This document shows, piece by piece, positions 1 to 731 of a stretch of 40,972 nt of DNA. This DNA is from an uncultured Granulosicoccaceae bacterium (GTDB taxonomy: Bacteria; Pseudomonadota; Gammaproteobacteria; CALCKW01): positions 1 to 40,972 of the forward strand of contig CALAMQ010000005.1 in the NCBI GenBank assembly GCA_937925815.1, written 5' to 3'. The notes beneath the pieces are model-generated. The model was not told the origin of the DNA and did no database searches. It was given only the letters and a program-made list of their open reading frames with translations. Every line of letters begins with the position of its first letter. Within the stretch, counting starts at the first letter, position 1. The translations under genes and the position numbers were made by a program.

Positions 1-731
1 GCAGGATGGATTCACAACCGCTAGGGCGGTTGTTCACCCTGCGGGCAACCCTCTGGGTTGTCCTAAACGGCTCTGCCGTTTGGTCGAACGAAGGTTCTCA
101 TCCTGTTCGGGTGCCGCAACCAAAAAAGGCCGTCAGGTGGGTCGCCGCGTTGAGATCGAGTACCCGGCAGGATTGACTCGTGACGGCCTAAGGGCCGTCA
201 CTCGCCCTTCGGGCAACCCTGCGGGTTGTCCTAAACGGCGTTGCCGTTTAGTCGAACGAAGGTTCTCATTCTGTTCGGGTGCCGCAACCAAAAAAGGCTG
301 TCAGGTGGATGGCGTTGTAGTGGAGTGGGCGGCAAGAGCTACTCGTGACAGCCTAAGGGCTGTCTCTCGCCCGGCAGGATGGATTCACAACCGCTAGGGC
401 GGTTGTTCACCCTGCGGGCAACCCTCTGGGTTGTCCTAAACGGCTTTGCCGTTTAGTCGAACTAAGGTTCTCATCCTGTTCGGGTGTCGCAACCAAAAAA
501 GGCTGTCAGGTGGATGGCGTTGTAGTGGAGTGGGCGGCAAGAGCTACTCGTGACAGCCTAAGGGCTGCCTCTCGCCCGGCAGGATGGATTCACAACCGCT
601 AGGGCGGTTGTTCACCCTGCGGGCAACCCTCTGGGTTGTCCTAAACGGCTCTGCCGTTTGGTCGAACGAAGGTTCTAATCCTGTTCGGGTGCCGCAACCA
701 AAAAAGGCCTCCCGCAGGGAGACCTTGTTTG
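1..731 (-). repeat. Tandem structured repeats downstream of tRNA-Arg
   Basis: Four copies of a repeat follow the tRNA-Arg gene in its direction of transcription and run off the left edge. The shared block GCAACCAAAAAAGGC (GCAACC, six A, GGC) recurs with starts at 116, 284, 489 and 694 (third copy preceded by GTC instead of GCC), giving spacings of 168, 205 and 205. The 168-base unit lacks a roughly 40-base hairpin segment (GATTCACAACCGCTAGGGCG region) seen at 1, 374 and 579. Each unit holds several small hairpins and ends, on the minus strand, with a stem followed by six T. Both ends resemble the tRNA 3' end: GCCCGGCAGGAT on one side and ATCCTGTTCGGGTGC on the other, which makes the unit a large imperfect palindrome. 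The arrangement recalls the repeats behind E. coli tyrT. Function is unknown; short ORFs inside look accidental. Confidence 0.9.
700..724 (-). terminator. Rho-independent terminator of tRNA-Arg
   Basis: On the minus strand an eight-pair stem (GGTCTCCC with GGGAGGCC, loop TGC) is followed by six T. It starts about ten bases after the encoded CCA of tRNA-Arg, so it should end the tRNA transcript. The following repeat units each carry their own hairpin plus six T, like serial back-up terminators. Confidence 0.85.

Follow-up and report, generated by a model that had tools for sequence, protein, structure and literature searches.

Repeats linked to tRNA genes (TLR; Rfam family RtT) were first described in 1978 and are still without an established function (PMC8144298). 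For E. coli K-12, Stenum et al. (2021) listed 22 such repeats in ten loci, the last 18-19 bp of each being identical to the end of the tRNA or rRNA upstream of it (PMC8144298). The three repeats linked to rRNA were reported to bind CsrA as well as Hfq; for an early phenotype in amino-acid starvation, a nearby reading frame later proved responsible (PMC8144298). Furthermore, Northern blots of Actinobacillus pleuropneumoniae showed RtT RNAs near tRNA-Asn and tRNA-Lys (PMC4986893), and rtT-like elements were reported in enterobacterial BIMEs (PMC2965389).

The window, i.e., the whole stretch of 40,972 nucleotides analyzed here, represents the start of contig C5 (base 1 = contig base 1) of a 3.56 Mb draft genome. 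Behind its tRNA-Arg(CCG) gene, at least four repeat units were recovered on the minus strand by a direct-repeat search, with unit starts spaced 168, 205 and 205 nt apart; tRNA call and repeat search agree with the arrangement given in the preliminary description of this locus. Since the contig begins inside the array, the array is cut off and four units represent a lower bound. Contigs of draft genomes (G000: C5, C174 and C53; G001: C21, C34 and C101) end at or near such arrays, and assemblies probably undercount them, since contigs break at or near these places. The following features were assigned:

734-810, minus: tRNA-Arg(CCG), the gene preceding the array (ARAGORN, Rfam)
695-732, minus: terminator-like hairpin with core 704-726, directly behind the tRNA; the flanks pair too (CCAAAC..UUUGG) (pattern scan and fold)
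667-691, minus: left arm of unit 1 (GCACCCGAACAGGAT, antisense to the 3' end of the tRNA), with a small GAAC..GTTC hairpin (sequence, fold)
587-666, minus: core of unit 1, comprising H1, GGAC, H2, CCCGNAGGG and H3 (models R1 and R2)
567-586, minus: tail of unit 1, a decayed copy of the tRNA 3' end with an exact run of 11 nt and 13 of 19 positions (sequence; counted by eye)
495-566, minus: additional segment resembling H3 and tail, with a terminator-like stem of long loop (551-558 paired with 501-508), then a U-run (sequence, fold)
382-461, minus: core of unit 2 (models R1 and R2; closed fold z-score -6.4)
290-361, minus: second extra segment and terminator-like stem (346-353 with 296-303) (sequence, fold)
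175-256, minus: core of unit 3 (models R1 and R2)
122-188, minus: tail of unit 3, agreeing with the tRNA 3' end at 16 of 19 positions, together with a terminator-like stem formed by 181-188 and 128-135 (sequence, fold; counted by eye)
9-88, minus: core of unit 4, with the contig end just past the core (models R1 and R2; contig end)

Read 5' to 3', the first half of a unit consists of the tRNA-antisense arm, the small hairpin, H1 (AAACGGC..GCCGTTT), GGAC and H2, followed in the second half by CCCGNAGGG, TGAG or TGAA, H3, GAATC and a tail similar to the 3' end of the tRNA (ATCCTGCCGGG). In the predicted fold of unit 1, positions 678-689 of the left arm pair with 575-585. Pairing of left arm and tail allows a unit to adopt the shape of an acceptor/T-arm helix in which the core takes the position of the T-loop; for two window units, the fold z-scores are -4.5 and -6.4. 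In the 205-nt units, one more segment resembling H3 plus tail precedes the next U-run. Reading frames within the array are short or overlapping ones only.

The preliminary description had proposed that each unit ends in a terminator. This applies to the tRNA-proximal unit, which has a different terminator from the others; located at 704-726, it is the sole compact intrinsic terminator scored on the minus strand, its hairpin folds with z-scores of -2.7 to -3.7, and the underlying scan is weak (two sites found versus a shuffled mean of 1.3). For the inter-unit terminator-like stems the proposal holds less well, as these comprise 8-9 bp with long loops and a U-run and reach z-scores of -0.9 to -1.9. 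The matched letter changes quoted for the stems are present: GGCCGTCA (128-135) faces TGACGGCC (181-188) in one unit, and GGCTGTCA faces TGACAGCC at 296-303/346-353 and 501-508/551-558 in two other units, with the hairpin beside the latter stems changing in parallel (one copy with G-U). Selection on pairing had been deduced from these changes. Taken alone, they represent weak covariation because one C/T difference repeats at linked sites in two unit types; the idea of selection on pairing is retained for the core, whose pairing is conserved across relatives.

Since a BLAST query including the tRNA was swamped by tRNA matches, a model of the core alone was built. Model R1 is based on twelve cores from the window's genus and other families of its class and contains neither E. 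coli sequences nor tRNA positions past the T-loop-like ends. It nevertheless found all four RtT repeats of tyrT/tyrV (E-values of 1.4e-7 to 3.2e-6) and the spacer between terminators T1 and T2 of rrnB (E-value 2.2e-7). Model R2 comprises 34 other sequences, among them the RtT repeats of E. coli and its rrnB T1-T2 spacer, the window's genus being left out. Over the 41 kb of the window, it matched the four array cores and nothing else, with E-values of 9e-17 to 7e-16, where the R2 alignment was fitted to the R1 structure, itself drawn partly from the window, while its sequences exclude the window's genus. The rrnB T1-T2 spacer, being part of the R2 alignment, scores 61.5 bits with this model. 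Accordingly, the resemblance to the E. coli tyrT repeats noted in the preliminary description is real, and its statement that the sequence is unrelated to them was wrong, as a model without E. coli finds RtT and a model without the window's genus finds the array.

Judged by sequence, the array is a divergent relative of the E. coli tRNA-linked repeats. Like RtT (RF00391), it stands in tandem behind a tRNA and contains, in the same order, an antisense T-arm, the small hairpin, H1, H2, CCCGNAGGG, H3 and a tRNA 3' end. In contrast to RtT, the tRNA is Arg and not Tyr, the stem sequences are others, the tail is decayed, and the window gives no match to the Rfam RtT model: at gathering thresholds, Rfam reported tRNAs only and no repeat family over the window, and RtT in particular had no window match at gathering, none at an E-value of 0.1 in locus L050, and none in the window's own genome. 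The same Rfam model independently matches several R1 loci in other genomes. Regarding position, the core of unit 1 starts 68 nt behind tRNA-Arg(CCG) in the same orientation, i.e., directly downstream of a tRNA as TLRs do. The two window tails agree with the tRNA at 13 and 16 of 19 positions (exact runs of 11 and 13 nt) and fall short of the 18-19 bp identity of TLR ends, so that the array is a divergent TLR relative and no strict member of the group.

The E. coli rRNA-linked repeats rrA, rrB and rrF (PMC8144298) share the core fold, sit between two terminators and end in a copy of the 5S rRNA 3' end; they differ in being located behind 5S rRNA instead of a tRNA and in having GGA loops reported to bind CsrA, which are absent from the window units. 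Within L141, positions 535-612 correspond to the rrnB T1-T2 spacer and match the core model, and the spacer end repeats the 3' end of 5S rRNA (AACTGCCAGGCATCAAAT). The RtT RNAs of A. pleuropneumoniae, compared here by their published description, are Rfam RtT members near tRNA genes and were detected on Northern blots (PMC4986893). Moreover, positions 163-257 on the minus strand of the window (same coordinates in L050) gave a sub-threshold match to Rfam RF02902, AaHKsRNA22 (36.5 bits; gathering threshold 39.8). This Aggregatibacter sRNA 22 may represent an unrecognised member of the same structural family.

A search of other genomes with a covariance model, as suggested in the preliminary description and carried out with a model including cores of other families, detected relatives in 26 of 56 related genomes, representing 23 of 53 genera, and in 54 of 199 genomes sampled across the phylum (both with R1). 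Substitutions in relatives that break the pairing had been named as an observation against selection on structure. Instead, among 138 distinct cores, 92.3% of the alignment cells are paired and double changes occur in 18 of the 20 pairs. The covariation score was reached by none of 500 shuffles and the signal was lost when partners were slid, in an alignment that was fitted to the model, which favours the signal, and with shuffles made without correction for relatedness. The core fold is thus strongly supported, and the pairing may be selected on RNA or on single-stranded DNA.

For 66 of the 142 unique cores in the fetched loci, a same-strand tRNA lies 31-646 nt upstream; these 66 cores come from 17 genomes, the loci having been picked by model score and being ended in places by contig ends. 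The linked tRNAs are of the isotypes Ser, Arg, Gln, Glu, Val and Pro. Copy numbers are minimal values, as most of the related genomes are drafts whose contigs are broken by the arrays. A tRNA-free pattern scan returned 11 named stretches (from Aliidiomarina, Microbulbifer, Serratia, Mariprofundus and others), nine of which have a same-strand tRNA 68-91 nt upstream; in five cases, this is tRNA-Arg(CCG). In 39 of the 66 linked units, the tail matches the adjacent tRNA's 3' end exactly over a run of 12 nt or more; in 31 of these 39, the run holds 18-19 tRNA nucleotides and mostly begins at the core end. Hence, the end identity known from TLRs occurs in relatives (31 of 66 linked units), in contrast to the window tails. 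Swapping left arms and tails between units had a modest effect: own pairs reached -16.9 versus -14.1 kcal/mol, and 23% of the units surpassed 95% of the swaps.

The tails follow the adjacent tRNA, and the cores follow the genome. Core likeness amounted to 0.674 within a genome across different tRNAs as compared to 0.539 across genomes at the same tRNA and a background of 0.525, and clustering by genome and not by tRNA was reached in none of 2000 permutations. In G018, for example, the cores behind tRNA-Gln and tRNA-Val are 94% identical, and tails and left arms differ, each being its own. Since cores cluster by genome while tails follow the tRNA, the data suggest that cores were copied between tRNA loci of one genome, the ends of each unit corresponding to the tRNA at hand; alternatively, the likeness of cores within genomes could stem from gene conversion between loci. 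An ordinary local tandem duplication of the tRNA 3' region, with no core movement between loci, would account for units that are tandem and alike within one locus. This explanation, already disfavoured by the clustering of cores by genome across tRNA loci, also has to contend with one fold common to many families and with cores dispersed in many places, and it is considered very improbable. A search of limited depth found no movement enzyme.

The preliminary description had asked whether copies in relatives always follow tRNA genes. They do not, as many cores are dispersed and far from any tRNA; linkage to tRNA is a strong preference and no rule. Near-identical dispersed cores were observed in three genomes outside the window's class, namely G064 (L153-L159), G102 (L160-L163) and G122 (L164-L166), nearly all of them without a nearby tRNA and with flanks conserved within each genome. 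In Serratia sp. Ag1 (G252), 53 core matches were counted, many of which are paired about 113 nt apart. The dispersed cores of these genomes share the core model with the array and occur in many copies per genome; they differ from it in that most are not behind a tRNA and have other flanks. By description, the rtT-like elements in enterobacterial BIMEs (PMC2965389) can be set beside them. In L062 (positions 1501-1580; G029), the core seems, as judged by eye, to overlap the end of a recombinase-like gene.

The core is inverted behind some genes for tRNA-Phe, -Met, -Leu and -Pro, and for Phe, Met and Leu it is again placed between T-arm halves. Reverse cores at these four tRNAs were seen in L104, L128, L060, L100, L124, L138, L130 and L137, in most cases with a copy of the respective tRNA's 3' end after the core. 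Furthermore, in L037 (G002) and L105 (G011) the core is located inside the T-loop of a tRNA copy without a normal 3' end. L037 represents the orthologous locus, beside the same cytochrome c gene. Within L037 (contig C317 of G002), positions 150-320 and a neighbouring copy are tRNA-Arg(CCG)-like, tandem, with the core in the T-loop and with extra D-arm bases; ARAGORN finds no tRNA there. In the corresponding syntenic position, G037 carries a unit; in G001 and G003, the tRNA is present but is not immediately followed by one.

Tails that begin at the core end and hold 18-19 tRNA nucleotides in many units would also fit a cis-acting trailer, with units tuning tRNA termination or 3' maturation and the copied 3' end kept as a cut signal for processing enzymes; recognition of the repeated 3' end by RNase E has been proposed (PMC8144298). 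Such a role is regarded as improbable, given that no unit immediately follows the orthologous tRNA in G001 and G003, that many cores are remote from tRNA genes and that the tails of the window are decayed.

A functional small RNA, released from the tRNA transcript and acting in trans, e.g., by binding CsrA via GGA loops, would agree with the strongly conserved fold, with the expression of rRNA-linked repeats and their binding of CsrA and Hfq (PMC8144298) and with the RtT bands on A. pleuropneumoniae Northern blots (PMC4986893). Most H1 and H3 loops outside the window's genus also hold GGA, the CsrA motif: it was found in 89 of 111 H1 loops and 85 of 111 H3 loops, a few loci being counted twice. 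In the window's genus, however, GGA occurs in one of 35 H1 loops and in none of 35 H3 loops despite csrA-like genes, the 19 tRNA-linked E. coli repeats were predicted not to bind CsrA and the phenotypes reported are modest (PMC8144298), and presence of the unit varies at one syntenic locus. A trans-acting RNA is therefore judged unlikely as the main explanation, though it is the rival to be taken most seriously. In the window's genome, GGA is present in none of 14 rows in either H1 or H3 loops; an unpaired AGGAC linker remains, so that CsrA might still bind. Genomes G000-G003 encode two to four csrA-like genes each, and their core loops are almost without GGA, in contrast to most of the other genomes sampled. 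A CsrA sponge was considered for the array in view of ANGGA loops elsewhere and is unlikely here, because the loops of the genus lack GGA though csrA is present.

Based on these results, it is proposed as the probable explanation that the TLR-related array mainly represents a self-spreading structured element for which the 3' ends of stable-RNA genes are a tolerated site; any regulation would be secondary, and a strong function is presumably lacking. Sequence and covariation show a structured core that is flanked by a copy of the tRNA 3' end, decayed in the window, and by an arm antisense to this end. With the arms closed, the unit can take the shape of an acceptor/T-arm helix whose T-loop is replaced by the core. 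The core would spread at the DNA level between the tRNA genes of one genome, the ends of each unit coming to match the local tRNA, as is suggested by cores that cluster by genome and tails that follow the tRNA, and arrays would then lengthen by tandem duplication. By analogy to E. coli, RNA polymerase passing the tRNA terminator would transcribe the units as a folded 3' trailer, which may be removed during tRNA maturation. As a guess, self-primed snap-back copying of the tRNA 3' end at the terminator would account for the antisense arm after the terminator.

A broader reading, put forward tentatively and given somewhat less than an even chance, is that one widespread mobile structured element lies behind TLRs, the rrnB T1-T2 spacer and numerous repeats scattered between the genes of Pseudomonadota, its core being copied between the tRNA genes of a genome, in either orientation, into a duplicated T-loop with a fresh local tRNA 3' end.

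The array represents a divergent form of a repeat type already known, the TLRs, and these are placed in one structural family extending well beyond Enterobacterales; the open-access literature was searched, and earlier such descriptions may exist. The same family takes in the rrnB T1-T2 spacer, which is in wide use on plasmids. Within this family, the core acts like a moving entity and the ends act like local acquisitions, and the separation of a genome-specific core from a tRNA-specific end makes the origin of TLRs testable.
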